This document shows, one piece after another, positions 622 to 63,364 of a stretch of DNA of 63,364 bases. The stretch comes from a virus. The position numbers and the translations under genes are program-made. The notes beneath the pieces are model-generated. The model ran no database searches. It saw only the letters and a list, made by a program, of their open reading frames with translations, and was not told the origin of the DNA. Position 1 is the stretch's first letter. Every line of letters starts with the position of its first letter. The stretch spans positions 1 through 63,364 of the IMG/VR virus record IMGVR_UViG_3300020581_000085; one strand, written 5' to 3'.

Positions 622-1205
622 TCATCGCTATCGTAGGGGCGGGAGGGCAGGGTAAAACCGTGGAGGACTGTCTATCGTCCTACGCCGATCCTTCGCATCG
701 GATATTCTTCGACGACAAGACTAATCTTCCGGTCAAGTCACTTTATAAGCAGGAAGGTTTCAAGCAATTCCTGACCGTTGTAGCCATCGGGGACAACGTA
801 ATACGAAGCCTCATATGCGAGCAGATTTTGATTCGTGGCGGGAATCTTCTCACTGTCCAGCATAAGGATTGCTTCGTTTCATCGTCTGCCAAGATCGGGG
901 TTGGATCGACTATCCATTTCGGGGTTCACGTCGGGGCAGGGGTGGTACTCGGAAAAGGCTGTATCATCAACAATGGCGCCAGCGTCGGCCATGGATGCAA
1001 GCTAGGAAACTACGTAAACGTTTGTGACGGTACCATGTTTGGTGGCGACGTTAAAGTCGGAGACGAGACGTTCATAGGATTGAATTGCACAATCCTTCCC
1101 AAGATCAAGATCGGTAAGTCATGTACGATCGGAGCTGGATCGGTAGTCATCCACAATGTACATGATGGGGCCAAGGTAGTCGGTAATCCCGCGAGGCCGA
1201 TATGA
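618..1205 (+). CDS. Sugar O/N-acetyltransferase, NeuD/PglD-like left-handed beta-helix family
   Basis: 195 residues. The N-terminus (IIAIVGAGGQGK) is the nucleotide-binding PglD/NeuD-type start. Residues from about 90 onward form hexapeptide repeats (SAKIGVGSTIHFG, GVVLGKGCIINNGASVGHG, KVGDETFIGLN), the left-handed beta-helix of acetyl-CoA-dependent sugar acetyltransferases. The SVGHGCKLG segment holds the likely catalytic His. It ends with VVGNPAR, the usual end of this family. The start at 618 was chosen over an upstream in-frame ATG because the family N-terminus begins there. It overlaps the aminotransferase by four bases, so the two probably act in sequence: amination, then acetylation of an NDP-sugar. 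Confidence 0.85.
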   Translation: MIIAIVGAGGQGKTVEDCLSSYADPSHRIFFDDKTNLPVKSLYKQEGFKQFLTVVAIGDNVIRSLICEQILIRGGNLLTVQHKDCFVSSSAKIGVGSTIHFGVHVGAGVVLGKGCIINNGASVGHGCKLGNYVNVCDGTMFGGDVKVGDETFIGLNCTILPKIKIGKSCTIGAGSVVIHNVHDGAKVVGNPARPI

Positions 1206-2314: not shown

Positions 2315-3312
2315 GGATTTTGATCGCCGGGGCTGGCGGGTATATCGGGATTCCTCTTTACGAAGAACTGGCGAAGAGAGGCCATGAGGTCTGGGGTTTC
2401 GACCGGTGGTTCTTCGGTAAGAAACCAATGGGAATTGCTAGCGGTATTTACGCAGATATAAGAACCGTAGACCCTAGAAAGATGCCGCAGATGGATGCGG
2501 TTATCGACCTAGCCGGTCTCTCCAATGATGCCTCTGCCGATATTGATCCGGAGTTGACGACATCCATCAATCTCCACGGTGCCTGTAGACTGGCTACGCT
2601 GGCCAAGGATGCGGGTACGCGAAGGTATATCTACTCCAGCTCATGTTCGATTTACGGAGCTGGTGAACGCGCTGGGCTATCTGAGGGCGATGATCCGAAC
2701 CCTCTGACGGCATATGCAAGGTCCAAGGTTGGCGTCGAGGATCATCTTCGATCGATAGCATCTCCAGATTTCGACCCGATCATATTTCGCAATGCAACAG
2801 TGTTTGGCGCATCTCCCCGCATGAGATTTGACCTGGCCGTCAACATCATGACGCTCAGGGCATGGCGGGATAGACTGATTTATGTGATGGGATCTGGAAA
2901 GCAGTATCGTCCCTTTGTTCATGTGTTGGATGTGGTAAGGGCATTCGTGCTTGCGGTGGAGCGGAAGGAATATACTAACGATACGTTCAACGTCGGATGT
3001 GACAGCATGAATATGTCGATTGAGGAACTATCCTCTCGGGTAAAAAATGTTTTCCCGTCTGCGGACGTTCACAACATCCCGGACGATCCCGATAAGCGCA
3101 GTTACAACGTCTCGTTCCAGAAGATAAAATCAGCCATGCAATTCAAGGTGCACCATGACGTCACCATGGGAATTTGCGAAGTTAAAGACGCCTTGATCAA
3201 GGGGAAGATCAGCGGAGATGACCCTACCGCATACACTTTGAACTGGTATCGTTCGTTGATGGACTGGGACCGTAGACTTAGCGAGATACGGCTAGACGGC
3301 AGGATCCTATGA
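2311..3312 (+). CDS. NAD(P)-dependent NDP-sugar epimerase/dehydratase (extended SDR)
   Basis: 333 residues. N-terminal Rossmann motif GAGGYIG at residues 7-13; YSSSCSIYG strand; catalytic Y-x3-K as YARSK; RNATVFG substrate segment; and RPFVHVLDVVRAF, typical of extended short-chain dehydrogenases acting on nucleotide sugars. It could be a 4-epimerase or a dehydratase; the sequence alone does not decide. It closes the acetyltransferase-aminotransferase-epimerase trio with four-base overlaps, indicating a single translational unit. Confidence 0.85.
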   Translation: MRILIAGAGGYIGIPLYEELAKRGHEVWGFDRWFFGKKPMGIASGIYADIRTVDPRKMPQMDAVIDLAGLSNDASADIDPELTTSINLHGACRLATLAKDAGTRRYIYSSSCSIYGAGERAGLSEGDDPNPLTAYARSKVGVEDHLRSIASPDFDPIIFRNATVFGASPRMRFDLAVNIMTLRAWRDRLIYVMGSGKQYRPFVHVLDVVRAFVLAVERKEYTNDTFNVGCDSMNMSIEELSSRVKNVFPSADVHNIPDDPDKRSYNVSFQKIKSAMQFKVHHDVTMGICEVKDALIKGKISGDDPTAYTLNWYRSLMDWDRRLSEIRLDGRIL

Positions 3313-5499: not shown

Positions 5500-6008
5500 A
5501 GTACAAACTCCAGTGCAATTTCTGTAGCGAAACTTTCACCCATATTGGCAACTCTTTCCCTACGCACTGCCCGCTGTGCTTTGCCTACGTCGGGCTAGAT
5601 GGCAAGCCGGAGGTAAACCTCCCGTTCCTGTCCAAGGCGGTTAACAAGACACCGGATACCCTCAATAGACAAATGGAGTCAATGGCCAACGATAGACGGT
5701 ATCAAGCCGCGGAGATGACCGGAAATCCCGTATCAGACTTTGATTCGATGAAGCATACCAACATGAGGGATAGTCTCCATGAGGGTGACACTTCTTATGT
5801 CCCGACACGGCAGCCAGCCACCGATGATCTCAAGGTTCAATTCGGTGATGGGCAGGGAGGCAATATAGACCCGGCTATCCTGCAAGGAGTGAGAACCGGG
5901 GGCAACGCCAATATGGGGGCAAATCAGGTAATGCCGTCGATCAGAAGTCTACACCAAAGGAATGCCCACGCCATTGTTGCCAAGGGAAGCATTAAGGCAA
6001 AAGGCTGA
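5496..6008 (+). CDS. Zinc-ribbon protein, 170 residues
   Basis: ATGA overlap with terL. The N-terminus has CNFCSETF followed by HCPLC, two CxxC pairs spaced as in a small zinc ribbon. The rest is polar and probably disordered, with many Asn and Asp. It lies between terminase and portal, so a packaging or head-assembly role is possible, but function is unknown. Confidence 0.8.
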   Translation: MKYKLQCNFCSETFTHIGNSFPTHCPLCFAYVGLDGKPEVNLPFLSKAVNKTPDTLNRQMESMANDRRYQAAEMTGNPVSDFDSMKHTNMRDSLHEGDTSYVPTRQPATDDLKVQFGDGQGGNIDPAILQGVRTGGNANMGANQVMPSIRSLHQRNAHAIVAKGSIKAKG

Positions 6009-7741
6009 TGCTTCATATCCCGACACAGGAAACCGCTCTAGTACGCTTTATCAACGAGCATATTGAATTGTGTATGGAGACGGCTGCGGGGCGGGCTTCC
6101 GAGTGTCGTCTAATCAATGCGATCGTGGAAACCGGAAGGACCGATGGCGCTAAGTCCAAGATGAACATGCTCTACAATCATCTGGATCGTTTGACTGCCT
6201 ACCTCTATTCTCCCACCGACCTACGGTTCACGCTAGATTTTGAGAACGATTACCCGGAGAGAATTTATCAGCAGGCCGGAGTAGTAGCACGAAGTCTTAC
6301 GCGGGATTGGGAGCGAAATAATATTGACACGCTATTCGGCGCCGGAGTTTTTGAATCCCTCAAGTACGGATCATCTATCCTGAAACAATGGACAGAGACG
6401 ACCGACGATGAGGATGTCTCGTTCTGTAGTCGGCTAACAAACCAGTGGAACTTTGGAGTTTATACGGAAGACGAAAACGACCTGTCAAAGCAGGAAGTCC
6501 TCTGCGAGCGCATGTACCTCACGATGCCGGAGGTATGGCAGCGAATCTATCGTCTGCCAGGCGCTAAAGAATTGATGAAGCGTATCAAGTCTCATTCAAG
6601 ATCGGGAGAATCCGACTGGGGCGCGACGTCATTCTTCCATCAGGTTCTATCGGTTTCCGCTCTCAATACATCTCAGGTTAATCCAGTTCCGCCTCCCGGT
6701 GGCATCGTCGATCTAGCCAATAACCAGAACTACTCGATGATGTCGCCGACCATCGCGGCAAATCGAGTTTTGATGCACGAACTCTGGGTCAAGGACGAGC
6801 ACGATTACGTCACGTTACAGATGATTGAGCCAGATATAATCGTCGCCCCGTACCGAAAGGACGGGATTGTGATGAGGAAACAGAACCTCATGGTTCCTGG
6901 CGACATGAAAACCGGTCGCCATCCGTACACTCTGATCCAACCCAACCAGATGAGGGGATATATCTGGGGACGAACCGAAATATCAGATCTGGTCGAACCT
7001 CAGATGTTACTCTCTCAAGGCGCAGACGACGCTCAGAGATTGCTAGGTGTCCAAGTCGATAAGATCATTGGGTACACTGGCGTCGACGGAATGACCGATG
7101 AGAGATACGACGCCATGAGGGGAGCAGGATGGGTGTCAGCTCCACAGCAAGCTACAATGGCCGACCTCACCCCTAAATTTCCCAATGAGCTTCTGCCAAT
7201 GCTCAAGTTCTATATCGAGCAGTTGAATGTCATTGGGGGGTTCTCTGACCTTATGCAAGGACGAGGAGAATCAGGAGTTCGTGCTGGAACGCACGCCAAT
7301 ACCCTGATGAAAACAGGGTCTCCCAGACTTAGAGATCGGTCGTTACTTGTGGAGCGTCAATGCGCCACAGCGGCCGATCTCACTCTTTTGCTCAAGACGG
7401 CAAAGGACGGAGACCAGTTTTGGACAAAAGCCGAAACGCTAGAGGATATCAAAAACACCACATTCCGTCTGACAGACCTTCCTGACGATAGGAGAGTGGC
7501 AGTAGATAGCCACAGCTCTAGTCCGATATTTGCGGACGATCATCAGCAACTAACGGCGTTTGGTTTGAAGGCCGGATTCATTGATGGCGAGGAAGCGATC
7601 GAAGACCTTCCGTATCCTAACAAGGAACGGAAAAAGCAGAAATATCGGATGAAGCAGGTTGCTCAGCAGAAGAAGCTGGAAGAGTTGAAGCAGGCCGATC
7701 CGGAAGCTTATGCTAAGCTATTGAGCCACGGTAAAAAGTAG
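6008..7741 (+). CDS. Portal protein
   Basis: 577 residues, start overlapping the previous stop by one base. Size, gene order (after terL, before scaffold and coat), an alpha-helical N-terminus (YNHLDRLTAYLYSPTDLRF) and the late RLRDRSLLVERQCATAADLT helix match podovirus portal proteins. It forms the dodecameric ring at the capsid vertex through which DNA passes. The C-terminal tail is a charged helix (KQKYRMKQVAQQKKLEEL) like the barrel helix of P22-type portals. Confidence 0.85.
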   Translation: MLHIPTQETALVRFINEHIELCMETAAGRASECRLINAIVETGRTDGAKSKMNMLYNHLDRLTAYLYSPTDLRFTLDFENDYPERIYQQAGVVARSLTRDWERNNIDTLFGAGVFESLKYGSSILKQWTETTDDEDVSFCSRLTNQWNFGVYTEDENDLSKQEVLCERMYLTMPEVWQRIYRLPGAKELMKRIKSHSRSGESDWGATSFFHQVLSVSALNTSQVNPVPPPGGIVDLANNQNYSMMSPTIAANRVLMHELWVKDEHDYVTLQMIEPDIIVAPYRKDGIVMRKQNLMVPGDMKTGRHPYTLIQPNQMRGYIWGRTEISDLVEPQMLLSQGADDAQRLLGVQVDKIIGYTGVDGMTDERYDAMRGAGWVSAPQQATMADLTPKFPNELLPMLKFYIEQLNVIGGFSDLMQGRGESGVRAGTHANTLMKTGSPRLRDRSLLVERQCATAADLTLLLKTAKDGDQFWTKAETLEDIKNTTFRLTDLPDDRRVAVDSHSSSPIFADDHQQLTAFGLKAGFIDGEEAIEDLPYPNKERKKQKYRMKQVAQQKKLEELKQADPEAYAKLLSHGKK

Positions 7742-34194: not shown

Positions 34195-35217
34195 TCACCT
34201 AACCGGCTTCCGCAATCCCATGCGAACAGCTTGGACGTTCGCGATCTTGTTCGCGACGTTGCGGTCATACTTCCGCGTTTGCGCGATGTCGCTGTGGGTT
34301 GCGGCTTCCCTAACGTGCTCGATCTCGGCGCCAGCGTCTCTCGCCTCGCTGATACCGCCGGCCCGCGAATCCTGGTTCCGTACGTTCTTTGGAACTCCGG
34401 CCATGTCAGCGAGAAGCCGCCATTTCCGGCGGAAGTCATCGGCGTGATACGGCAATCCGGTGGATTCGCTGATGACCAGCGGTCCAGATGCCGGAAGTAA
34501 TTCACGGTGAACCGTGACGACTTTCGTCTCGGTATCCTCGATGACCAGCGTTTCCCACCACCGCGGATCTAACTCTTCCAGCACCATGATAGCCATCTTC
34601 AGGTCGACCACCAATATTTTCTGTTTTTTGCTGGTGACGTGATGCAGCATCAGGTTTTCGTCGATCTCTTCCCACCGGAGCCCGCGTATCCACTTCTCTT
34701 TCTCGGTCACAACATCGGAGATGCCAGGTTCGGCATGCGGGATATACTCTCCAATTACGTCTTTCTGCCTGAGAATTAGTTCAAATTGCAGAGCTTGAGC
34801 CAAGGCTATGCTGTAGCGGAACTGACTTCTGGCGACCCGTCGAACGGCAATGGCATGTTCGGCGGTAATAACCGACGTCCGCGGCTCGCACTGTGGAACC
34901 TTCAGTTTGTTGAGAACTAAACAAAGCCGCTCGCATTCCTCATCCTCGAGGAGCGTAAGGCCGAACCCGGCCAAGGTCCGTAAGATACCAATCAGGGCAT
35001 GAGCAATGGCAACCTTATTCTCGGGGCCGAGCCAGTCCATGTGCCATTCTTTGGCGGTGACGTACCGGATGTCCTTAAGCTCGAAATGACCATAAAGCCG
35101 GTCGATCCTGGCGAGCATCGACGCCTGCCACTTGCGGTTATGATAGCGAAGCTTGTGGAACGACGAGACTTTGTGCGTCTGGTACGCCTCGATCAGGTCT
35201 TTGAGGGTTCTACTCAT
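34195..35217 (-). CDS. int: Tyrosine recombinase (phage integrase)
   Basis: 340 residues: an N-terminal core-binding-like helical half and a catalytic half. Visible catalytic positions are Arg in LILRQKDVIG, Lys in VTSKKQKILV, the box-II segment QDSRAGGISEARDAGAEIEHV, then HSDIAQTRKYDR with His and the nucleophile Tyr. In the usual HxxR the His is replaced here by Gln (QDSR), an unusual but tolerated change in some phage integrases. It would recombine an attP, not identified, with a host attB. It is the main evidence that the phage can lysogenise. Confidence 0.8.
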   Translation of the reverse strand: MSRTLKDLIEAYQTHKVSSFHKLRYHNRKWQASMLARIDRLYGHFELKDIRYVTAKEWHMDWLGPENKVAIAHALIGILRTLAGFGLTLLEDEECERLCLVLNKLKVPQCEPRTSVITAEHAIAVRRVARSQFRYSIALAQALQFELILRQKDVIGEYIPHAEPGISDVVTEKEKWIRGLRWEEIDENLMLHHVTSKKQKILVVDLKMAIMVLEELDPRWWETLVIEDTETKVVTVHRELLPASGPLVISESTGLPYHADDFRRKWRLLADMAGVPKNVRNQDSRAGGISEARDAGAEIEHVREAATHSDIAQTRKYDRNVANKIANVQAVRMGLRKPVR

Positions 35218-35218
35218 A

Positions 35219-35512
35219 CTATTTCACCGGCTTTATCTTCTGCTGGAGGCGAAGGGTAAACTGCCGATAGACCTTCATCGGGAGGTTTTCCAAGGCCTCG
35301 TTGAGGGTGGCTATATCGTTGGCGTCCAGCCCCTCGATATTCCATGCCGTAGGCTGGGCTGGCGCGGCCTGTGGTGCTGGCGGCGGAGGAGGGGTGGGTG
35401 TTGGGGCCGGAGCGGACTGAGCCTCACTGGCGGGCTTCTCTGCTTGCTGGGGGGCATCCTCGGCAAATGCCGGGGTGGCTAGTAGGACGGCGATAATAGC
35501 TAATTTCTTCAA
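35219..35512 (-). CDS. Periplasmic Pro-rich protein with signal peptide, 97 residues
   Basis: MKKLAIIAVLLATPAFAEDA is a clear Sec signal with AFA cleavage site. A Pro/Ala/Thr-rich linker follows, then a C-terminal helical segment (DIATLNEALENLPMKVYRQF). The layout resembles spanin-type or envelope-tethered proteins but has no lipobox. ATGA overlap with the upstream gene. Confidence 0.65.
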   Translation of the reverse strand: MKKLAIIAVLLATPAFAEDAPQQAEKPASEAQSAPAPTPTPPPPPAPQAAPAQPTAWNIEGLDANDIATLNEALENLPMKVYRQFTLRLQQKIKPVK

Positions 35513-35709
35513 GTTACGTCTCCTCGTTTGAAAGCTAGGCTGTTTTGGTAGGCGAGTTGGTTAGTCATAACCAAGAACCGAATGTCATCGGCATTGAGGT
35601 ATTTCCGGAGCGAGGCTTTGAAGACCTCCTCCGAAACCTCACCGCAAACATACCTGATGACGAGCGCTTGTACTTCTTCATCGGTTATTCTGCGGTTTCT
35701 TAGGACCAT
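35509..35709 (-). CDS. Hypothetical helical protein, 66 residues
   Basis: Charged helical protein (ITDEEVQALVIRYVCGEVSE). Its start lies inside the end of the HNH endonuclease gene (10-base overlap) and its stop is coupled to the signal-peptide protein. Function unknown. Confidence 0.6.
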   Translation of the reverse strand: MVLRNRRITDEEVQALVIRYVCGEVSEEVFKASLRKYLNADDIRFLVMTNQLAYQNSLAFKRGDVT

Positions 35710-36362
35710 TGGTTTCTCCTTGGATAAACCGTTATTTTGGGTGTCATTAACGCATCCTCCAAGGACATCCCACGCGCTATTCTATGGGTGACCGTACCGC
35801 TGTTAATTGCCGAACCTGACATTTCTATCGCTTCAGCCAGTGTCATGGTTGCCCCATGGTAATTGACTAGGCGATTTCTTCTTGTATTTCTTGATTGTTC
35901 TTTCTTAGTAGCCCAGGTGCAGTTCACCGGCTCGTAATTTCCGTCATTGTTCTTGCGTTCTATCGTATGTTTGGGAGTGGGTTTCGGGCCCATATCTTCG
36001 TAGAAGTCTTCGACGCTATTACGCCACCGCTCACAGACGATTATTCCCCGACCTCCGTAGTTTGGATAGTTAATGGACGATTCGTCGTGGCACCGCGCTA
36101 TCATCAGATTCCATGTGACATACTCTGGAGTACGACTGAGCCCATACTTGGCACTAGCCTCTCCGCGCTTGACCCCGGCTTCGCGTCTGAAACACCCGCA
36201 TGATATAGTTTTGCCGGATTTTAGGAGATGCCCAAAAACGCAGGTCTCCGCACCGCAATCACACTTGCAAAACCACTTGGTATTATAAGTTTTGCTAGGA
36301 GCTTGCCCGATAACAATTAATCTACCGTATCGGTTGCCGCTCAAATCTAAAACATTTGCCAT
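35700..36362 (-). CDS. HNH homing-type endonuclease with NUMOD-like C-terminus
   Basis: 220 residues. N-terminal zinc region typical of these phage enzymes (NRYGRLIVIG, CKCDCGAE, SCGCFRRE). Central HNH-type core with YPNYGGRGIIVCERW, MGPKPTPKHTIERKNNDGNY and NCTWATKKEQSRN. A C-terminal helix-turn-helix-like element (TMTLAEAIEMSG, GMSLEDALMTPK) follows. It is probably a selfish free-standing endonuclease that has entered the early operon next to GcrA; its start overlaps the gcrA end by 41 bases. Confidence 0.85.
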   Translation of the reverse strand: MANVLDLSGNRYGRLIVIGQAPSKTYNTKWFCKCDCGAETCVFGHLLKSGKTISCGCFRREAGVKRGEASAKYGLSRTPEYVTWNLMIARCHDESSINYPNYGGRGIIVCERWRNSVEDFYEDMGPKPTPKHTIERKNNDGNYEPVNCTWATKKEQSRNTRRNRLVNYHGATMTLAEAIEMSGSAINSGTVTHRIARGMSLEDALMTPKITVYPRRNQWS

Positions 36363-36801
36363 TCATGGGCCTCCCTTCCTCGCTAGCACGACGTCTCTCC
36401 TGTGGAGTTTCGTAGCAAACTTTCCGGTGCTTATGACACCAAGGATATCCATGTGAGCCGCAGTAACGATGGGATGAATGAAGCGCATCTCCGAAGATGT
36501 ACCGGCAGTCGTCGTCTGTAAGCTCCTCCAGCGTTACCATCCTCGGTAATTCGACAACGGTTTCTATTTTCATTGGCTTGGGTCTCTTGGGCTTATAAAT
36601 TCTCGGTGCTTTTGATGTATTTTGTCCGTCGCCGACCGGCCCACCCTTACCCCCGAATTGAAACCCTCTCCTGAATGCCAACCCGAGTATGCCGCTTCTG
36701 GTCATTCCCGGCATTAACAGCGCCACCTTGGCGGCGCTCAATCCCTGACTAGCCAATAATCTGATTTTCTCTACCAAATGCTCAGGAACGGGATACGGCA
36801 T
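36322..36801 (-). CDS. GcrA-family cell-cycle regulator homologue
   Basis: 159 residues. The N-terminal helix-turn-helix (LVEKIRLLASQGLSAAKVAL, MTRSGILGLAFRRG) and the C-terminal LTDDDCRYIFGD, YCGSHGYPWCHKHRKVCYE match the conserved parts of GcrA (its L-x-x-x-x-C-x-W/Y-P-x-G and C-x-H box). In Caulobacter and relatives GcrA binds RNA polymerase sigma70 and activates promoters carrying CcrM-methylated GANTC. A phage copy suggests it redirects or mimics host cell-cycle transcription. Family restriction to alphaproteobacteria is a main host clue. Confidence 0.8.
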   Translation of the reverse strand: MPYPVPEHLVEKIRLLASQGLSAAKVALLMPGMTRSGILGLAFRRGFQFGGKGGPVGDGQNTSKAPRIYKPKRPKPMKIETVVELPRMVTLEELTDDDCRYIFGDALHSSHRYCGSHGYPWCHKHRKVCYETPQERRRASEEGRPMNGKCFRFERQPIR

Positions 36802-36809
36802 TGGAACCC

Positions 36810-37082
36810 CTACGTTAAAGGTATCTCGATTGATCCAATAATTTCCCTTGCGAGGTCTTTCCAGCCCTCCATGCGGGAGACGACCGCCTCTAGTTTTTCA
36901 ATTCTATTTTCGGCGTCCTTACGCAGTCCGTCCGAAATATCCGCCTCCGCAAGTGCCACATCTCTCTTCTCGTTGAGTTCGAAGCATCGATCCGTCAGAA
37001 GTTTAACCTGCTTCTGAAGATTCGCGATCGTTACCTTTGGATCCTCGCCACGAGGAATCGGCGGCGGCTTAATCTTAGGCAT
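36810..37082 (-). CDS. Coiled-coil protein, 90 residues
   Basis: Start taken at ATG 37082, overlapping the upstream stop (TGATG). After a Pro-rich start (KIKPPPIPRGEDPKV) it is a single long coiled coil (VTIANLQKQVKLLTDRCFEL, AENRIEKLEAVVSRM). Part of the recombination operon; function unknown. Confidence 0.65.
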   Translation of the reverse strand: MPKIKPPPIPRGEDPKVTIANLQKQVKLLTDRCFELNEKRDVALAEADISDGLRKDAENRIEKLEAVVSRMEGWKDLAREIIGSIEIPLT

Positions 37083-37531
37083 CAACGTCTCTCCCGAATC
37101 ATCTTTTCGATCTCTACCTTGATCGCGCTGGCCGGCGTCCCCGGCAGGAACTTTTGCTCTACTGCGTACTTTGCCCGCTCTATCAATCGTACCCACTGAT
37201 CGGCGGTGAGGTTGCGAGTGGTCTTAGCCCTTATTTCCGTCTCCCCGCGCTTTCGATCATGGTGGTAAGTGACGTGCCGGCACTCCATCAAAACCTGCTC
37301 TTTAGCGAATTCGGCGTCTTCCTTTAGCCAGTCACACTGCTCTGCCAAAAGTCCGCATAGAGCTCGGAAATATCTCATGTACTTTAGTGTAGCTGGAACC
37401 GTGACGTCTGCCCTAACCTCTGCTCCTCGCGGTATGGAATTCCACTCAGGTTCGAATACATCGGTTTCCAGAAACAATCCTATCTCGCCCGCCTTACCCG
37501 GACGTTTACGAAAGTGAATTTCCTGGCTCAT
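37082..37531 (-). CDS. DUF1367-like phage protein
   Basis: 149 residues. The plan FEPEWNSIPRGAEVRADVTV, then TLKYMRYFRALCGLLAEQ, then a conserved Cys/His-bearing LMECRHV, then LTADQWVRLIERAKYAVEQK resembles DUF1367 proteins found next to recombination genes in lambdoid-type phages. It sits directly after the annealing protein with a four-base overlap. Molecular function is unknown for the family. Confidence 0.55.
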   Translation of the reverse strand: MSQEIHFRKRPGKAGEIGLFLETDVFEPEWNSIPRGAEVRADVTVPATLKYMRYFRALCGLLAEQCDWLKEDAEFAKEQVLMECRHVTYHHDRKRGETEIRAKTTRNLTADQWVRLIERAKYAVEQKFLPGTPASAIKVEIEKMIRERR

Positions 37532-38601
37532 GGTTCAAGGCGGGCCTGCGCTTCCCTCATCGCGGATTGGATCGATTCTTTGTCCGCCGGGAACAGATCG
37601 GCCCATTCCACGTCGACCACATGGGTAAAGAACGTATCGATCTCCTCCGCGACTTCCATCTTGGCGAATCGCTCAAGAACGAAAGCCACCCATCGGTCGT
37701 AGTCCTTCTTGATATCGGGGACGGCGCCCTTCTTTGGCTTCTTCGTCTCTGCCGGGGCGTCGTCGGACATGGCCCCAGGCTCAACCGGCTCCGTCTTGCG
37801 CAGAAAATTAATATGCTTTTCCGTTGCGGCCTTGCATCGCGCGGCATCATCGGGGCTGCCGTTCTTCAGCTTATCCAACTGCGGCTGATTGGCGTCGATC
37901 CATTTGAATACGACCGACACTTCGGATTCGTTCTGCACGGCAGCAATGAATTTGTCGGCCCATCCCTGATAGGTCCCACCCACAATCCTTTGAGGCCCGA
38001 CTTGTTGCACGATAGGGTCCGAATGTTGCACCGGATGGTGATCTTGTGGCTTTGGGGCGACGACTTGTTGCGTGACCACCGCCGCCTGGCGCGGGGGAGC
38101 GGCATCGCGGCTGACTTCCTGTTTGGCAGACGCGGGGATATCCTCCACCTCAGATTCGTCCAACATCCCTAGACCGCAGATTGATAGTGTGGCGCGCCGC
38201 TTGGCCTTGGTCTCAGCCTTCATCAAAGCGTTGGCGAGACCTTCGCCCTTCAAGCCAGCGATGTTGACCGCGCCGGTCGAAACGTCTGTCCGATTATTGA
38301 TGTTGCAGACCTTGGCCTTTACCACGAACACGCCTTCCCGTTCGCTCTCGGCGAGTTCAGTGACGGAAATGCCGTGGATAGAGCGGAGTTGGTCGGTACA
38401 ATCTTTGAGCGCGTAAAGGCGCATCTTGCCGTTAAGCACGATGTACTCAAATGGTTTCGTTAGCGGATTGAGACCAACTGACTTACAGACGGCCTGATAG
38501 TAGGAGTTACGCTCCTCGGACGTAAGCTTGGACAGATCGCCCTTAATTAGGACGTCCTCCATTAACTTATGGCCATCATCGGTTTTGGCTAATGCGTTCA
38601 T
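37528..38601 (-). CDS. Putative single-strand annealing protein (Rad52-superfamily-like)
   Basis: 357 residues. The first ~150 carry NSYYQAVCKSVGLNPLTKPF, LYALKDCTDQLRSIHGISV and AETKAKRRATLSICGLGMLD. The last, basic helix-rich motif recalls the core of Rad52/Sak-type phage annealing proteins. The second half is a disordered linker and a helical C-terminus. The operon context (DUF1367-like, HNH, RusA elsewhere) supports a recombination role. Assignment rests on pattern and context, not on a scored match. Confidence 0.5.
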   Translation of the reverse strand: MNALAKTDDGHKLMEDVLIKGDLSKLTSEERNSYYQAVCKSVGLNPLTKPFEYIVLNGKMRLYALKDCTDQLRSIHGISVTELAESEREGVFVVKAKVCNINNRTDVSTGAVNIAGLKGEGLANALMKAETKAKRRATLSICGLGMLDESEVEDIPASAKQEVSRDAAPPRQAAVVTQQVVAPKPQDHHPVQHSDPIVQQVGPQRIVGGTYQGWADKFIAAVQNESEVSVVFKWIDANQPQLDKLKNGSPDDAARCKAATEKHINFLRKTEPVEPGAMSDDAPAETKKPKKGAVPDIKKDYDRWVAFVLERFAKMEVAEEIDTFFTHVVDVEWADLFPADKESIQSAMREAQARLEP

Positions 38602-39518
38602 CGGATCCTGACCTTCATAACAATGGTTGCCCCGGGCACGGATATCCCCGCATTGACAGCTTCTTGGGCGATGTTGGACAGAAGTGAAATCAGCCTGTCG
38701 TCAGACTTAAACTGCGCAAACACCTTGTCGATATCGATTGTCTCGACAAACGGATAATCCTTGGCTGTTGCCGCCCTACCCATCCCGCCGCTGATCTTCG
38801 CCGCTGGCGCTGGCATATTCGGCTTGACGCCCGCTTGTTCTGCTGCAATCGCGGCCTTGCGCTTGGCTAGCTCCCAATCTTCAAGCGCCGTCCGGAGCTG
38901 GATAGACGACGATTCGGCATCATCCATAATCGGATTCCAGATGGCGCGGATGAACTTCTGCTCATCGAGGAGAGGGCGGTTCAAGGCATCATATGCCTTC
39001 TTAGCCTCACCCTTCAGCCCCGTCAGTGTGGATCGAAGGGATTGAGCCCGCGTAGCAGCTTCGTCGCTTTCGATTTTGAGATACTGCGGGACGGCGGCTT
39101 TGGCTTCCGCGATTTTCGCCGCAATTTGCTTTTCCGGCGGGATTTCAACTTTGACTGCGGCTGGTCTCCCGTCGTCGTGGATTGTAACCCCAGTGATGAC
39201 CGCTCCTTGTATCGTGGCATCAATGTCTCCCCACAAACCAGTGTCGCGGAATTGCCAAAACAAGGCTTCCGAAATTGGGGTCTTGCTTACATACGGCCAG
39301 CGCTCCCGCGCCTTCATATCGTCGACGTCGCGACCATTATCCTGATATCGTAGATCGCCCGTGAACGAATCGTACCAGATCGCAACGGCGCTCAATGTAC
39401 CGTCACGCGACTTCGCACGGTAATATCCTGCGCGAGGGTTGTCCGCGTCTATCGGGCCGCGGTCGCCCTTGAGAGCGGCGTAGTACCAATCCGTTGTGCG
39501 GTCGATATCGTCCATCAT
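38598..39518 (-). CDS. Hypothetical protein of the recombination operon, 306 residues
   Basis: The N-terminal half is a compact alpha/beta region with many Trp and Tyr (DWYYAALKGDRG, WYDSFTGDLRYQDN). The middle is a long charged helix (QIAAKIAEAKAAVPQYLKIE, RAIWNPIMDD), and the C-terminus is conserved-looking (YPFVETIDIDKVFAQFKSDD). It precedes the annealing protein with ATGA overlap and may be its partner. Function not known. Confidence 0.6.
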   Translation of the reverse strand: MMDDIDRTTDWYYAALKGDRGPIDADNPRAGYYRAKSRDGTLSAVAIWYDSFTGDLRYQDNGRDVDDMKARERWPYVSKTPISEALFWQFRDTGLWGDIDATIQGAVITGVTIHDDGRPAAVKVEIPPEKQIAAKIAEAKAAVPQYLKIESDEAATRAQSLRSTLTGLKGEAKKAYDALNRPLLDEQKFIRAIWNPIMDDAESSSIQLRTALEDWELAKRKAAIAAEQAGVKPNMPAPAAKISGGMGRAATAKDYPFVETIDIDKVFAQFKSDDRLISLLSNIAQEAVNAGISVPGATIVMKVRIR

Positions 39519-39655: not shown

Positions 39656-39864
39656 TCTTTCGCTCCGAAGATAGTCATGTCCGCTTGACGGACTAAATCC
39701 ATGATGGCGCTACGCAGGGGCCACTCTTGGTACCCGTCGGTAGATAACTTGCTGGCGATATGACGCCATTGTTTTACAGTCATCGTGACCGTCATGGTCG
39801 CCAGGATTTCCTCTACCTTCTCTAGGTGGAACGTAGCATTTATGCCCGGATAATTGCTGCTCAC
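39652..39864 (-). CDS. Hypothetical protein, 70 residues
   Basis: Small soluble protein with a repeated Met-Thr-Val strand (ATMTVTMTVKQWRHIASKLS) and a C-terminal helix. ATGA overlaps with the HNH gene upstream and the 46-codon ORF downstream. Function unknown. Confidence 0.6.
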   Translation of the reverse strand: MSSNYPGINATFHLEKVEEILATMTVTMTVKQWRHIASKLSTDGYQEWPLRSAIMDLVRQADMTIFGAKE

Positions 39865-40265
39865 TTGCCAAATCCCCTCTGTGATTTTGGGAACGGACGA
39901 CTCGGTATTGGCTTCGCCTCCCGCTTCTTTGTGCGCCCCTCAAGTCGACTGAACTTGCTCTTAAGCCAAATATCGCTTCCCTTGGTGGTGACCGTGGTAG
40001 ACGCCCCCGGCATCCTGCCAATCGTTCGCCTCAAATGACACGGCGTCTTATGTAGGGCGTCGATGAAATTGGGGTCATTCTGCGGAGGAAAATAGTCCGT
40101 ACCTTCCACGTTGACCGACCGCATAATTATGCTGGGGCGATGGTCGAACTCGATCTTGTCGTCCTCGGTGAAGATCGTCTTGCACTCGGCGCAATGAAAA
40201 TTCTGCCGGAGCAAAACCTCGGCCTTGACCTTCGGTGGGATGTTCTTGCGCTTTGGTCGGGTCAC
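39861..40265 (-). CDS. HNH-family nuclease
   Basis: 134 residues from GTG 40265. Core CAECKTIFTEDDKIEFDHRP, then NFIDALHKTPCHLRRTIG, gives the zinc Cys pairs, the central Asp-His and the final His of an HNH site. The C-terminal third is basic and disordered. Such small HNH proteins occur in packaging and recombination modules; here it heads the early minus-strand operon. Confidence 0.75.
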   Translation of the reverse strand: MTRPKRKNIPPKVKAEVLLRQNFHCAECKTIFTEDDKIEFDHRPSIIMRSVNVEGTDYFPPQNDPNFIDALHKTPCHLRRTIGRMPGASTTVTTKGSDIWLKSKFSRLEGRTKKREAKPIPSRPFPKSQRGFGK

Positions 40266-40435
40266 CGGCCGTCCTCAATCTTCCAAGCCTGAGACATTAG
40301 ACCATCGACATCAGACCGGAGTTGATTTATTTTCTCTCGGTCCTTTTCCATGCGGTCAAGTTTCGAATTCACCGTCGCGACGTCAATGATAATGATAACT
40401 ATTCCGGATATCGTCATCCATTCGAAGAAACTCAT
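40262..40435 (-). CDS. 57-residue membrane-anchored coiled-coil protein
   Basis: First gene of the leftward operon; ATG 40435 follows GGGGAA. One N-terminal hydrophobic segment (ISGIVIIIIDVATV) followed by a charged helix (KLDRMEKDREKINQLRSDVD), the layout of a small anchored regulator or inhibitor. Its stop overlaps the GTG start of the HNH gene. Confidence 0.6.
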   Translation of the reverse strand: MSFFEWMTISGIVIIIIDVATVNSKLDRMEKDREKINQLRSDVDGLMSQAWKIEDGR

Positions 40436-40457
40436 AGCAGTTCCCCTATTTTCGTAA

Positions 40458-40523
40458 ACACTACGTTGTCGCTTCCTGATTTGTCAATGGTCCCTTGTCA
40501 AATTAATTTTGATTGTGTATATC
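40458..40523. promoter_or_regulatory. Divergent early promoters with paired TTGTCAA sites (switch region)
   Basis: Leftward promoter: -35 TTGACA on the minus strand at 40487-40482, 18-base spacer, -10 TAGTGT at 40463-40458. Rightward promoter: -35 TTGTCA at 40495-40500, 17-base spacer, -10 TATATC at 40518-40523. This would start transcription at about the ATG of the HTH gene (40531), so that mRNA looks leaderless. The two TTGTCAA repeats (40481-40487 and 40495-40501), 14 bases apart, cover both -35 boxes and are good operator candidates. Confidence 0.65.
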
Positions 40524-40530
40524 GCAAATC

Positions 40531-40779
40531 ATGGCCGCTAAAACACATCCTGGAGACGCAGAAGGCTGGGCGAAGGTTATTCGCTCTCTCCGCGCCCAAG
40601 GTCATAAGTTTCCCCATGCCTTCATAGCTTCGAAAATCGGTATTTCGAGGCAGAGTGTAAGACTTTGGCAGGCCGTTCCAATCGAGCACCTAGCCAAGGT
40701 GGCCGAATTGAGTGGGATGCCGAGGGCTAGAATTCTCCCCGCGAAATTCAAACAAATGCAGGAGTTGATGGGATCATGA
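40531..40779 (+). CDS. Cro/YdaS-like HTH transcription regulator
   Basis: 82 residues from ATG 40531. The helix-turn-helix reads IASKIGISRQSVRLWQAVP followed by IEHLAKVAELSGMPRARILP, the standard Cro/YdaS form. It is the first gene of the rightward operon and lies directly beside its own probable operators. No ribosome site precedes the ATG, consistent with a leaderless message. Probably represses the switch promoters. Confidence 0.75.
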   Translation: MAAKTHPGDAEGWAKVIRSLRAQGHKFPHAFIASKIGISRQSVRLWQAVPIEHLAKVAELSGMPRARILPAKFKQMQELMGS

Positions 40780-41820: not shown

Positions 41821-41885
41821 GTAGTTTACCTAACTGATTGATTCTAGCCATAGCGGTATTGACACATAGGCACGACTCAATCCAT

Positions 41886-41924
41886 AAAAAGGCGCGGCCC
41901 GCAGGGGACAAATCCTGCGGGCCG
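41886..41924 (-). terminator. Minus-strand intrinsic terminator
   Basis: Perfect stem GGCCCGCAGG (41896-41905) with CCTGCGGGCC (41914-41923); on the minus strand it is followed by CGCCTTTTT. It would end leftward transcripts entering from about 42.3 kb, and prevents convergent transcription into the RusA gene. Confidence 0.7.
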
Positions 41925-42006
41925 AATAGAAGTCCGATGCTCTTTGCGGGGCACCACCGGACGAGATTGACTTAGGACATATAGATTCCGACGTCAACCC
42001 TCGCCG

Positions 42007-42321
42007 TCAACCCCAGCAAATATCATCGGTTCCATAGGCCAGCCCGTCTAACGGGATAGGTCCTGCGAGCCTAGTCATGGTTGTTGCGGGATTACCTAGC
42101 CAAATCAATGAAACATTGGACGCTGGCGTTACGACGACCAGCACGAACGGCGCCTTAGCCTGATCTGGGGTGTTCGATCCGCCGCCGCATGGGTCTGTGA
42201 GTGTTCTGACAGAGCGACCCCAGAACAATACTCCTCGATCAGGTTCCGAAAACCGGAATCGCCTTCTGTTAGGCGGGTTTCCTCTGCCCGGTAGATTTTT
42301 CCCTTCGGGAAAAACTACCAT
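42007..42321 (-). CDS. Possible antisense-strand protein, 104 residues
   Basis: The only sizeable ORF in the 540-base gap between RusA and the next plus gene. The C-terminal half looks protein-like (APFVLVVVTPASNVSLIWLG, LAGPIPLDGLAYGTDD); the N-terminal part reads through a palindrome and is less convincing. A minus-strand terminator lies downstream, which supports transcription in this direction, but no ribosome site is visible. It may be a remnant. Confidence 0.35.
   Translation of the reverse strand: MVVFPEGKNLPGRGNPPNRRRFRFSEPDRGVLFWGRSVRTLTDPCGGGSNTPDQAKAPFVLVVVTPASNVSLIWLGNPATTMTRLAGPIPLDGLAYGTDDICWG
42290..42319. promoter_or_regulatory. 30-base near-perfect palindrome
   Basis: GGTAG-A-TTTTTCCC-TTC-GGGAAAAA-CTACC, symmetric except for one extra A. 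It lies about 40 bases before the replication-module gene at 42362. It could be an operator, an RNA hairpin on either strand or a replication-associated structure; no T-run follows on the plus strand. Confidence 0.5.
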
Positions 42322-42361: not shown

Positions 42362-42598
42362 ATGAACGGGATCGAGAGAATTGCATCTGTATCAAGGTTG
42401 AGTAGAGCCGCAAAGGAAGAGATGAAGAAATGGAAGGAGAAGTCTGGAATACGCGCGATAGTGCCAAAAACTCAAAACCAGAAGCTTGGGGCTAAGAGGC
42501 TTCGGCTCTTGGCTAGAAAGATGGACAGGCACGAGCGACGAAAAATATCCCTAGGACCAGCGAGCGAAGTGAGAATCATCAAGTCGTCTGGTGCCTAA
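42362..42598 (+). CDS. Small basic protein, 78 residues
   Basis: ATG 42362 follows AAGGGG. Very basic helical sequence (RAAKEEMKKWKEKSGIRAIV, RLRLLARKMDRHERRK), suggesting nucleic-acid binding. Its TAA overlaps the DnaB start (TAATG), so it is probably made together with the helicase. Confidence 0.6.
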   Translation: MNGIERIASVSRLSRAAKEEMKKWKEKSGIRAIVPKTQNQKLGAKRLRLLARKMDRHERRKISLGPASEVRIIKSSGA

Positions 42599-43989
42599 TG
42601 CACAACGTCGAGATTGAGCAAATCGTCTTAGGTTCCATTTTGATGGACAACCGGTTATTCCAGGTGGTGTCGGAGAAGATCAGCTCATTCGATTATTTCG
42701 AGCCGCTGCACGCCGAAATCCACGGGATAGCCGAAACCCTGATATCTATGGGTAAGCAGGCTTCACCTATTTCTGTGGTTACGTTCCTACCGTCAGATTT
42801 CAAAATATTAAACCTCACTGCACGGGAATACCTTGCTCGCCTCGCCGCGGCGTCGACAATCCCCACCGAAGTTCCCCAACTGGCCGATATGATCCGTGAC
42901 TTGTCCGACCGTCGCGCCCTAAACGGCGTCGCAACCGAGTTAGGAAGGGCAGGGAGTGGCGATCCGGGCCAGATGGCTACGGAGGCCATAGAGCGGCTGG
43001 ACGCGATCCTAGCAGCCCGTACGGTCTCTGGAGTGCCTTCCCTGAGTATGGAACAATCCATCGCCAGGGCGATGGATGCCGCGGCCAAGGCATATCAACG
43101 AGATGGCGCCATTTCGGGCCTATCCACAGGGCTGAAGGATTTAGACCGGAAACTTCTCGGCCTGCAGCGGGGCGAACTCGTAGTGATGGCCGGCCGGCCT
43201 GGTTCCGGTAAGACCGCAGTTTCCCTGTGTCTCGCCCGCAACATGGCAGAGAGGGGGCACAAGGGCATCTTCTATTCACTTGAGATGGGTGACGTGCAGT
43301 TATCCCAACGGATGCTGACTGACGAGGCCTATGACGCTGAGAAGATTGCCTATAGCTGGCTTAGATCGGGGCGGTTTAGGGAGAATCAGTTTTTGGCAAT
43401 CCGGGACGCCGGGTACCGTCTGCAATGTCTACCAGTGAGGATAGAACAACAACCTTCGATGACAATGGGGCAGGTAGCTACGCGAGCTCGGCAGCAAAAA
43501 CGCTCGAAAGGGCTGGATTTTTTCATCATCGATTATCTCGGACTGATGAAGCCCTCCGGCCGGTACGCCGGCAACAAAACAAATGAAATCGGGGAGCTCA
43601 CCGCGGGCATCAAGGCCCTGGCGAAGGAATTGGATTGTGTCGGTCTCCTATTGTGCCAACTTTCGCGCGGGGTTGAGGGGCGGGAAGACAAGCGCCCCAA
43701 CATGGGGGATCTTCGTGATTCGGGGAATATCGAGCAGGATGCGGACGTGATCGTCATGATTTACCGCGAAGCCTATTACCTTGAGCGGAAAGAGCCCCCC
43801 GCAGGGTCTGCCGAATATCTCGTTTGGTCTGACCGGATGCAGGCTTGTTACAACGAAATGCACCTTATCGTGGAAAAGCAGAGGTCGGGCCCGATCGGAA
43901 CCGTCAAGGTGTTCTGCGACGTCGCATCCAATGCGATCCGAGATCACGGCTACCAGCGAGCAGAAGATTTGAACCAAATGGCAATCTAA
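42598..43989 (+). CDS. dnaB: Replicative DNA helicase, DnaB family
   Basis: 463 residues, the usual length. The N-terminal domain starts VEIEQIVLGSILMDNRLFQV. The RecA-like core has Walker A AGRPGSGKTAVS, the H1a-type FYSLEMGDVQLSQRM, Walker B FFIIDYLGLM, the LLCQLSRGVEGREDKRPNMG loop, and a final KQRSGPIGTV arginine-finger region. It unwinds the phage origin in the 5'-3' direction. The next gene is the likely loader. Confidence 0.92.
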   Translation: MHNVEIEQIVLGSILMDNRLFQVVSEKISSFDYFEPLHAEIHGIAETLISMGKQASPISVVTFLPSDFKILNLTAREYLARLAAASTIPTEVPQLADMIRDLSDRRALNGVATELGRAGSGDPGQMATEAIERLDAILAARTVSGVPSLSMEQSIARAMDAAAKAYQRDGAISGLSTGLKDLDRKLLGLQRGELVVMAGRPGSGKTAVSLCLARNMAERGHKGIFYSLEMGDVQLSQRMLTDEAYDAEKIAYSWLRSGRFRENQFLAIRDAGYRLQCLPVRIEQQPSMTMGQVATRARQQKRSKGLDFFIIDYLGLMKPSGRYAGNKTNEIGELTAGIKALAKELDCVGLLLCQLSRGVEGREDKRPNMGDLRDSGNIEQDADVIVMIYREAYYLERKEPPAGSAEYLVWSDRMQACYNEMHLIVEKQRSGPIGTVKVFCDVASNAIRDHGYQRAEDLNQMAI

Positions 43990-45008: not shown

Positions 45009-45043
45009 CCTCATCTTCCCCTGATACCGGGGCTCGCCAATGA
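45005..45043 (+). CDS. 12-residue coupling ORF
   Basis: A 12-codon ORF (MTSSSPDTGARQ) whose start overlaps the previous stop and whose stop overlaps the methyltransferase start, both as ATGA. It would keep ribosomes moving from the membrane peptide to the methyltransferase gene. Whether the peptide itself matters is unknown. Confidence 0.3.
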   Translation: MTSSSPDTGARQ

Positions 45044-45540
45044 CGCTCGGCAGCCACCAAACCACAATCGGCAAAACCCAGACGTGGATTACGCCAAAAT
45101 TCATCCTTGATGACCTCGGGCCGTTCGATCTTGACCCGGCTTCGTCTTGGGTCCGGCCATGGGATTGCGCGAAAACGAATTGGTGCGGCGGAACAACCGG
45201 CGACGGCCTGGAGCTAGAGTGGTTTGGTCAGGTTTGGCTAAATCCTCCGTTCCATCGCTATGAGGTTTCGCGCTGGATCGGGCGGCTGGCTGCTCACGGC
45301 AAGGGCATCGCACTCGTTCACGCGCGTACTGAGGCAAAATGGTTTGAGCCGATCTGGCAACACGCCAGCATGATCGGTTTCCTGAAAGACCGGCTCTATT
45401 TTCATTATCCTGATGGGCGCCGAGCAGAAGCTAACAGTGGAGCGCCCGCCGTGATTGCCGCCTTTGGGTTAGACGCCACTATGCGTCTTGCTGAATCCAA
45501 GATCCCGATGATCCGTATAACCGAATGGGAGCGGCCATGA
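45040..45540 (+). CDS. Phage DNA N6-adenine methyltransferase (Dam-like)
   Basis: 166 residues. TWITPKFILDDLGPFDLDPA, VWLNPPFHRYEVSRWIG (the NPPF catalytic motif), ALVHARTEAKWFEPIW and FLKDRLYFHYPDGRR match the phage-type DNA N-6-adenine-methyltransferase family. Recognition sequence cannot be told from sequence. It could protect phage DNA from host restriction or set methylation states read by GcrA-type regulators. No cognate nuclease is adjacent, so it is an orphan enzyme. Confidence 0.85.
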   Translation: MTLGSHQTTIGKTQTWITPKFILDDLGPFDLDPASSWVRPWDCAKTNWCGGTTGDGLELEWFGQVWLNPPFHRYEVSRWIGRLAAHGKGIALVHARTEAKWFEPIWQHASMIGFLKDRLYFHYPDGRRAEANSGAPAVIAAFGLDATMRLAESKIPMIRITEWERP

Positions 45541-60751: not shown

Positions 60752-60917
60752 CTTCTTCGGAGAATCCCTTATTGTCACTAAGCTACCAGATGGTGGCTAC
60801 GTCGTGTCAGACGTTCCTCAGTACAATGGTATAACCACTTTCCTATACGCCGCCTCGTCTATCACCGAAGTGCTGAATTACGTCCGACAGAAAATGGAAG
60901 AAAAAAATAATGGGTGA
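60744..60917 (+). CDS. 57-residue hypothetical protein
   Basis: Overlaps both neighbours by eight bases. Beta-rich (SLIVTKLPDGGYVVSDVPQY) then a helix (SSITEVLNYVRQKMEEK). Good protein-like composition. Unknown role. Confidence 0.55.
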   Translation: MSSFFGESLIVTKLPDGGYVVSDVPQYNGITTFLYAASSITEVLNYVRQKMEEKNNG

Positions 60918-62307
60918 TCGAAAGGCCGCGATACTCCAGTTCAATTCGGCGATCTCTCCATCTCAGGCTGCTAGAGAAGGCAGGGCTGACTGGCAACTTC
61001 CCTATCAGTTCTATTCCTCAGCCTGCATGAACGATGACACGATGTCATTAGCCTGGCATGAGTTGGGTAACACCCTTTGCGACATGAGCCTCACGCCGGC
61101 CGCGCTCGCCGCCCATCGCATAGCCGTTGAATGTCCGGATGGAGAATTACCGGGAGATATCCGCGCGAAGGATCGCGGCAAGTCCATGGTGCAGATCGCG
61201 TATCGCCTCAACACGATGGGAAGGCTCGAAGAAGCCGACGAGGCTATTGAGAAGGCATTGAACATGGATGGTACCGCGCAAGCATGGCTTGTCCGGTCGC
61301 TGATATCATCCGCTAAATGCAATCATGCCGATGCCGTGGTAGCCGGACGCCGCGCTCTTGACCTTGAACCAGATAATGCCACGATCGAAACCGCTCTCGG
61401 TCTCACCCTCATGTTCAAGGGGGATCTATCGAAAGGTCTAAAGCATTTCGATGCTAGGTTCCGGTATAAACTTAAGCATTTCCTGACATTCCCTTATCCT
61501 CAATGGCACGGTGAACAAGGTAAGACCGTTTTTCTGGTCGCCGACCAGGGTCTAGGCGATACGATATCATTCGCCAGATTTCTCCCCGAGTCTGCCAAGC
61601 GATGCAAGTTCATGTATGTCGGAGCTCAGAAAGAGCTTGTCAGGCTGTTCAAGGCTTCGTTCCAGCACATACCCAATATCGAGATCATCCCGCCGATGGC
61701 AACCGGATGGCCGCCGTGCGAATCGTGGACTACGTTCGTTAGCCTGCCTACCGCGCTAGGTCTCAACGATCATGAGATCAAGGAAACACGCGGTATTGCT
61801 ATTCCACAGTTCACAGTGCCGATGTCTTGGAAGTCCCCGGATCGCAAGTATCATATCGGTGTCGCTTGGTCTGGTTCTCCTATTGGAGATATCAACCACC
61901 ATAAATCCTTTCCGGTTGAGAACCTGCTGCGGCTGTATGAAATCCCAGGTGTTCAACTGTACTCATTGCAGATCGACGCCAAATCTGCGGACCTTCACGC
62001 CGCCGGGTGCGCCGCGCTCATCCGAGACCTAAGTCCTTTCGTAAATGACGTGGCGGACACCACGGCAATCATTAGGAATCTCGACCTGATAGTCACCGTC
62101 GAGAGCGCGTTGGGGCATGTCGCCGGGGCATGCGGTAAGCGAACGATCATTCCGTATAGCGCAAATGGCCACGACTACCGTTTGGGTCGTGATGGCGAGA
62201 ACATTATCTGGTACCCGCGGCACAGCATCGTGAAACAAAAAAGGTATGAACCTTGGTCGCTCACGTTTGACAGAGTAGTAGAGGCGGTGAGGGGGGAGTT
62301 GAGGTGA
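60910..62307 (+). CDS. TPR-repeat glycosyltransferase-like protein
   Basis: 465 residues. The N-terminal ~200 are TPR helices (MGRLEEADEAIEKALNMDGT, VAGRRALDLEPDNATIETAL). The C-terminal ~250 have FLVADQGLGDTISFARFLPE, HIGVAWSGSPIGDINHHKSF and IVTVESALGHVAGACGKRT, the GT-B fold features of bacterial TPR-fused glycosyltransferases (GT9/GT41-like). Such enzymes glycosylate proteins or cell-surface glycans. It lies about 0.75 kb before the GT-A-like gene and the sugar-synthesis trio, so all may make and attach one unusual sugar. Confidence 0.8.
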   Translation: MGDRKAAILQFNSAISPSQAAREGRADWQLPYQFYSSACMNDDTMSLAWHELGNTLCDMSLTPAALAAHRIAVECPDGELPGDIRAKDRGKSMVQIAYRLNTMGRLEEADEAIEKALNMDGTAQAWLVRSLISSAKCNHADAVVAGRRALDLEPDNATIETALGLTLMFKGDLSKGLKHFDARFRYKLKHFLTFPYPQWHGEQGKTVFLVADQGLGDTISFARFLPESAKRCKFMYVGAQKELVRLFKASFQHIPNIEIIPPMATGWPPCESWTTFVSLPTALGLNDHEIKETRGIAIPQFTVPMSWKSPDRKYHIGVAWSGSPIGDINHHKSFPVENLLRLYEIPGVQLYSLQIDAKSADLHAAGCAALIRDLSPFVNDVADTTAIIRNLDLIVTVESALGHVAGACGKRTIIPYSANGHDYRLGRDGENIIWYPRHSIVKQKRYEPWSLTFDRVVEAVRGELR

Positions 62308-63068: not shown

Positions 63069-63364
63069 CGCCACGCATTCTGATCGCTGGGACGAGTCAT
63101 GTTCATGACGAGTACACTAGAGAACTCTGCAAGCTATGGTATCGCGTTGTAAAGACGCTTAACCCTGAGGATGACTTCATTCTGATCGATTGCGGCAGCC
63201 CGTTTGATCCTCGTCAATTTCTGCCTGAGAAAACCGAAGTGTTCCGGTTCGAGGAGAACATCGGTGCCATCAACCGTGGTGGTAAGGATGGAGCAGGACG
63301 TGGTGTGTGTATGGCGGTGGAGTGGGCTATTAAAGGTGGATACGATTACGTATCCATCACCGAG
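63065..63364 (+). CDS. Putative GT-A-like glycosyltransferase, N-terminal part (continues at 140-538)
   Basis: Begins at ATG 63065 (ATGA overlap with the KTSC gene). The first 100 residues, TPRILIAGTSHVHDEYTREL then DDFILIDCGSPF, show the alternating strands of a nucleotide-sugar-binding half. Exactly 300 bases are present, and the frame continues without a break into 140-538 when the ends are joined, giving 232 residues. See the entry at 14-538 for the rest. Confidence 0.7.
   Translation, partial: MTPRILIAGTSHVHDEYTRELCKLWYRVVKTLNPEDDFILIDCGSPFDPRQFLPEKTEVFRFEENIGAINRGGKDGAGRGVCMAVEWAIKGGYDYVSITE
63226..63364. repeat. Window-end overlap, right copy
   Basis: Second copy of bases 1-139, differing at 63236 (G, keeps the gene open) and 63353 (T, Ser instead of Ala). 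This copy is likely the biologically correct one because it preserves the reading frame. Confidence 0.9.

Follow-up and report, generated by a model that had tools for sequence, protein, structure and literature searches.

The virus genome analysed here encodes a divergent member of the GcrA family that carries both GcrA domains. In the reading we favour, with somewhat better than even confidence, this is a phage whose strongly diverged gcrA would act in GcrA-like fashion mainly on host promoters, alongside a separate Dam-like enzyme that would protect phage DNA. Family membership and the two domains come directly from computation; from homology, the predicted domain structure and conserved residues we infer a role as a GcrA-type sigma70 cofactor, with its sigma70 binding, its activation and its host targets. 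The window, meaning the whole stretch of DNA that was analysed, is an entire virus record of 63,364 bases. Its first and last 139 nt (1-139 and 63226-63364) agree at all but 2 positions, so that the record probably represents a complete, permuted genome. No megablast-level match to its 30-46 kb part was found in the annotated phage collection. Family scans covered part of its ORFs, and the relevant features are collected in Table 1.

Table 1. Features of the window around gcrA, the divergent region and the methyltransferase gene.
Feature	Position	Strand	Evidence or remark
Integrase-like ORF downstream of gcrA	34195..35217	-	phrog_1 2.7e-9; PF00589 18.5 bits, below cut-off
HNH endonuclease-like ORF	35700..36362	-	phrog_374 5.9e-66; 5' end overlaps gcrA 3' end by 41 nt
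GcrA-family protein, 159 aa	36322..36801	-	PF07750 48.7 bits; phmmer 7ye1 1.2e-7; model matches 5yiv, 5yix_B
Pair of small codirectional ORFs upstream of gcrA	37082-37531 and 36810-37082	-	37082-37531: no family match
Weakly exonuclease/Gp157-like ORF, same leftward operon as gcrA	38598..39518	-	phrog_10477 3e-5; PF05565 17.4 bits, below cut-off
Divergent intergenic region between leftward and rightward operons	40266..40530		no GANTC, no GATC
Intergenic region upstream of dnaB operon	41821..42169		3/13 intergenic GANTC sites: 41840, 41874, 41984
DnaB-type replicative helicase	42598..43989	+	PF03796 4.8e-73; best matches phages of Caulobacter, 'Synechococcus' (GcrA-bearing), Sinorhizobium
Small adenine-methyltransferase-like protein, 166 aa, T1-Dam-like	45040..45540	+	phrog_111 1.5e-28; PF05869 27.4 bits (below cut-off)

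The first-pass annotation had recognised a GcrA homologue in this open frame, and the assignment is borne out. The ORF scores well above the Pfam GcrA cut-off (E 1.4e-12; cut-off 26.9 bits), is the single GcrA match in a six-frame search of the whole record, and is matched by phmmer to the PDB chain 7ye1 of Caulobacter GcrA. An N-terminal helix-turn-helix DNA-binding domain (residues ~1-47) is followed by a linker and a C-terminal sigma70-interacting domain (~86-131). In an AlphaFold2 model built on 32 aligned GcrA proteins (mean pLDDT 77.7), confidence is high for the DNA-binding domain (block means 84-96), fair for the sigma-binding domain and low for the linker. Among 110 chains compared with the model, the top match to the N-terminal domain is 5yiv_A, in which the DNA-binding domain of GcrA sits on methylated DNA (Z 6.5, 1.4 A, 45 residues), and the top match to the C-terminal domain is 5yix_B, the sigma-interacting domain of GcrA in complex with sigma70 domain 2 (Z 5.6, 1.9 A, 46 residues). 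These Z values are modest, as small domains lead one to expect, and because GcrA relatives were present in the input alignment the matches serve as a consistency check rather than an independent discovery. Both domains that characterise the family are thus found, the N-terminal one through its match to 5yiv_A and the C-terminal one through its match to 5yix_B together with the residues it retains.

A broad GcrA alignment drew on 41 of 57 GcrA loci (16 Thalassospira near-copies omitted) and on four further loci (L005, L006, L007 and L009), and a smaller one comprised 32 rows. The window protein keeps 9 of the 12 columns that are invariant in 31 other GcrA proteins, and seven of the nine lie in the sigma-binding domain (C99, R100, G104, D105, C114, C122 and H125). 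Conservation at C-R-x-x-x-G-D is partly built in, because the relatives were gathered by a search seeded on C-R-[WY]-[PI]-x-G-D that missed GcrAs without this pattern. The three invariant columns lost are I26V, A37G and P102I; at the looser threshold of at least 90% conservation 12 of 18 columns are kept, and the six substitutions are W5V, L13I, I26V, A37G, P102I and Y121W. The recognition helix of the window protein has S36, G37, L41 and F43. At position 41, 25 of the 31 other GcrAs have K and the rest have R, M or Q, and S36 and F43 occur in 4 and 3 of the 31, respectively. In a GcrA tree of 32 rows, from which short and near-identical rows had been removed, the window protein sits on a very long branch joining L017, also long-branched, and has no firm position; this placement, one long branch meeting a second, was rejected as evidence. 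With invariant residues lost, the helix changed and the branch very long, specific DNA binding by the protein could, from its sequence, be changed or lost.

GcrA proteins borne by phages have been in print since 2012 (PMC3556154, in the portion available). The accessible text of PMC3556154 and PMC6630229 describes GcrA in the phiCbK group (gp222) and in Agrobacterium phage Atu_ph08 (gp5), with a proposed role in raising host replication functions. The window protein is a new, very divergent addition to this known set: it is 24% identical to phiCbK gp222 in an alignment of five, a single-protein scan of viral contigs and phages returned no close relatives, and the phiCbK group and Atu_ph08 have no DNA-level phage relation to the window. 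Caulobacter crescentus GcrA (PF07750; 5yiv, 5yix, 7ye1) has the same two-domain layout, to which the window model fits at the distances given above, with 26-30% identity over structurally aligned residues; relative to it, the recognition helix (A37G, K41L) and the N-terminal Trp are changed in the window protein.

The surroundings of gcrA suggest that it belongs to an early operon, a placement drawn from layout, namely the exonuclease/Gp157-like and HNH neighbours and the divergent region at ~40.3-40.5 kb. A Cro-like helix-turn-helix ORF (40531-40779, read by eye) stands opposite 39861-40265(-), and the two could form a lysogeny switch. The longest GATC-free stretch of the record (1641 nt, 35191-36832) spans the HNH gene and gcrA and may be a segment of other origin. 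On the minus strand, a G+C-rich strong hairpin followed by T lies at 41895-41924, between rusA and the dnaB operon. Farther away, aminotransferase-like, nucleotide-sugar epimerase-like and TPR/GT9-like genes at 1202-3312 and 60910-62307 are possible phage glycan genes. The ORFs scanned included no recognisable terminase; a 577-aa ORF without a family match (6008-7741) is, by its position, a candidate terminase or portal.

The methyltransferase at 45040-45540(+) carries an NPPF motif and is a member of PHROG 111 ('DNA methyltransferase'). Its match to Pfam Dam PF05869 (E 3.1e-6) misses the cut-off of 28.1 bits by 0.7 bits, and it is homologous to R6L gp67 and DMCA_061c, both of which lie above that cut-off. 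In a comparison of 12 methyltransferases it is 51% identical to BritBrat gp70, 47% to R6L gp67 and 35% to DMCA_061c, and it groups weakly with T1 Dam (E 2e-5). Relatives occur in 232 of 50,697 phage records, Gordonia phages at the top, and the best matches (45-51% identity) come from phages of Gordonia, Mycobacterium and Erythrobacter; R6L, BritBrat and Ochi17 are phages with a Dam-like enzyme that, unlike the window, have no GcrA. Among the ORFs scanned for families no restriction partner was recognised, in keeping with the earlier description of an orphan adenine methyltransferase, and its location in an operon opposite that of gcrA is also confirmed, the two genes lying on opposite strands with ~8.2 kb between them. 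T1 Dam methylates GATC, and for this reason GATC is our best guess, by analogy, for the target of the window enzyme. The R6L authors likewise guessed a GATC target for gp67 (PMC5463345, accessible text).

Specificity of this enzyme for GANTC, as the first-pass annotation would have it, was considered and rejected as the leading interpretation. Published NPPF enzymes had first seemed favourable: the available part of Decewicz et al. (PMC5537653) reports GANTC methylation by a number of phage enzymes that carry an NPPF/Y/W motif, some of which are small and coded close to replication genes, and AmM1_62 is the Aurantimonas member of an enzyme group said, in the text available, to target GANTC (PMC6536676). 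The window enzyme shares the motif and the site near replication genes with phiLM21_p027 and its family phrog_799, but no similarity could be detected to that verified enzyme (E 0.54 and E 6.9 in two comparisons) or to its relative AmM1_62 (E 10). The phrog_799 profile, that of GANTC-specific phage enzymes, has 0 matches in the window and matches phiLM21 at 3.0e-65 and AmM-1 at 3.5e-60, and a six-frame search of the record for the CcrM-class PF01555 likewise gave 0 matches. The protein resembles the T1 Dam and phrog_111 types and is best taken as a Dam-like enzyme of a kind common in phages, separate from GcrA, whose probable function is to shield phage DNA from restriction.

Whether gcrA and a methyltransferase travel together was examined across 23 GcrA-bearing records, which count the window in and include three phiCbK-like and two near-identical 'Synechococcus' phages. 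A PF05869 match is present in 4 of the 23 and a PF01555 match in 2, which does not sustain the earlier description of the two genes as an associated pair; several of the viral records are fragments, and enzyme absence there is weak evidence. Caulobacter phage DMCA (PQ480021), tested apart from the 23, has both kinds of match. In the five records with GcrA and a Dam-like gene, the two genes are ~7 to 19 kb apart. In the window, then, gcrA and the methyltransferase reside in one genome, and no result of the analysis shows a circuit between them.

The phage genome is poor in GANTC. The window holds 143 sites against 224 expected from its parts, a ratio of 0.64 that is the lowest among the 16 gapped palindromes compared. 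GATC is present 400 times against 437 expected, which points neither towards nor away from methylation of GATC by the enzyme. The following counts for gaps and starts use a gene model compiled manually from the listed ORFs, with 30 start windows picked by eye. Between genes lie 13 of the 143 GANTC sites (16.5 expected), and the start windows contain 17 (20.4 expected); for GATC the start windows contain 48 against 57 expected. Phage gene starts show no GANTC or GATC signal, the divergent region contains neither motif, and the sites at phage promoters that the earlier proposal called for were not found in excess. The only group of note, at 41840/41874/41984, was set aside as within chance, since 4 triples within 150 bp are seen against 6.5 expected in the window and equally tight triples occur elsewhere. 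The extended motif YGAKTCK is in mild excess (47 sites against a shuffled mean of 36.7), not at gene starts. Alphaproteobacterial genomes are reported to over-represent intergenic GANTC at least 1.5-fold (PMC7987155 citing Gonzalez 2014, in the part accessible), and the available text of PMC9437464 reports no asymmetry of GcrA sites in alphaproteobacterial phages.

The depletion is also seen beyond the window. Observed/expected ratios for GANTC run from 0.39 to 0.82 in 17 of 17 GcrA-bearing IMG/VR loci, in 8 of which no other of the 16 palindromes is lower, and from 0.32 to 0.67 in eight alphaproteobacterial phages (phiCbK 0.43, CcrRogue 0.32, CcrBL10 0.42, DMCA 0.38, phiLM21 0.33, R6L 0.58, Pkon1 0.67, AmM-1 0.45); the ratio is 0.48 in 40 pooled GcrA-encoding bacterial genome loci. 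A small control set, made up of one phage of unknown host and five whose named hosts lie outside the alphaproteobacteria, gave BritBrat 0.82, Ochi17 0.93, QHHSV-1 0.94, T1 1.04, ctz7E20 1.14 and P1 1.20; the GcrA locus L024 and the Gordonia phage are both at 0.82. Depletion was rejected as a sign of a phage GcrA because phiLM21, AmM-1, R6L and Pkon1 are depleted and have no GcrA, and its likeliest meaning is that the phages live in hosts with CcrM. An alphaproteobacterial host is probable from the GANTC depletion, an indirect, compositional argument, and from DnaB, whose closest relatives by tblastn are in phages of Caulobacter and Sinorhizobium and in the GcrA-bearing 'Synechococcus' phages; the Caulobacter-type setting assumed in the first-pass annotation is in this respect supported. 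The head protein of the window had no match in 385 alphaproteobacterial genomes, in a search run without a positive control. Two phages labelled Synechococcus, Ssp-JY42 (L009) and Yong-M4-211 (L010), carry GcrA and are GANTC-depleted; they may actually infect an alphaproteobacterium present in the culture. A spring-water phage of 27,272 bases (L068, MW202753), with a capsid protein 33% identical to that of the window, has 0 GATC sites against 72.5 expected.

In the favoured reading, the C-terminal domain of the phage GcrA would hold domain 2 of host sigma70 and the N-terminal domain would steer the polymerase, shifting host transcription, including replication and cell-cycle genes, to a state that favours phage replication. 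Its main targets would be host promoters rather than phage ones, the likelier choice because phage GANTC is scarce, is not enriched between genes or at starts and is absent from the divergent region. The Dam-like enzyme would act beside it as an independent orphan guarding phage DNA from restriction.

This arrangement must be weighed against a looser use of the same protein. The phage GcrA might be a sigma70 binder without methylation-guided DNA binding, competing with host GcrA or recruiting polymerase broadly, as the concentration of retained invariant columns in the sigma-binding domain, the drift of the recognition helix at four positions and the lack of a motif signal at phage gene starts would suggest; the confident prediction of the DNA-binding domain, its match to the methylated-DNA complex and the occurrence of S36 and F43 in a few other GcrAs weigh on the other side, and we regard this possibility as doubtful. 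It is improbable that gcrA is a passenger in decay that no longer has a function. Such a gene could have the very long branch, the three altered invariant residues, the overlap of its 3' end with the HNH gene and, as a recent insertion might show, the GATC-free 1641 nt, but its frame stays open across the two domains, each of which is predicted to fold, and it retains most of the invariant residues.

The original proposal, that GcrA and the methyltransferase form a pair that reads and rewrites host GANTC methylation to time phage transcription, now seems very unlikely. Both genes are present, the enzyme begins ~1 kb past dnaB and has NPPF, as do alphaproteobacterial phage enzymes that are coded near replication genes and were shown to methylate GANTC, and the dnaB operon is preceded by three GANTC sites. 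Against it stand the lack of detectable similarity to the phiLM21 and AmM-1 enzymes, the absence of both phrog_799 and PF01555, and the intergenic and gene-start counts, which fall below expectation where alphaproteobacterial genomes are said to be enriched. The phage may still read the host code; for rewriting no evidence was found. A private switch, in which the diverged recognition helix would have retuned phage GcrA to the mark of the phage's own Dam-like enzyme instead of host GANTC and some phage promoters would turn on only after methylation, is scarcely credible. The lack of GATC enrichment at gene starts speaks against it, as do the GcrAs of other Dam-bearing records (L011, L020, L023 and DMCA), which retain the usual helix lysine.

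The favoured combination of a host-directed GcrA and a separate Dam-like enzyme has partial parallels. DMCA encodes GcrA (gp084), a Dam-like enzyme (gp061c) and a CcrM-class PF01555 enzyme (gp087). Like the window, it carries a PF05869-type enzyme alongside GcrA, and its DnaB is 37.7% identical to that of the window; it differs in that its gcrA lies inside the dnaB operon with the Dam-like gene in the opposite one, and in having the CcrM-class enzyme. A location of gcrA near replication genes is found in DMCA, Ssp-JY42, Yong-M4-211 and phiCbK. According to the accessible text, Atu_ph08 is a published phage with GcrA and some methyltransferase (PMC6630229), and Brucella phage Y17, like the window, combines GcrA-like proteins (ORF4/ORF5) with DNA methyltransferases (ORF40/ORF41) in one genome (PMC11836647). 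A literature search found no paper on DMCA, and the literature examined, available in part, gave no report of an experimental test of a phage GcrA.

Phage GcrA proteins are more varied than the phiCbK group, as the 17 further IMG/VR records that encode them indicate, and phages that carry such host cell-cycle regulators could reset the host programme. DMCA may be the more useful outcome of the analysis: with GcrA and two methyltransferase classes in one phage, it makes the idea testable in a model host.
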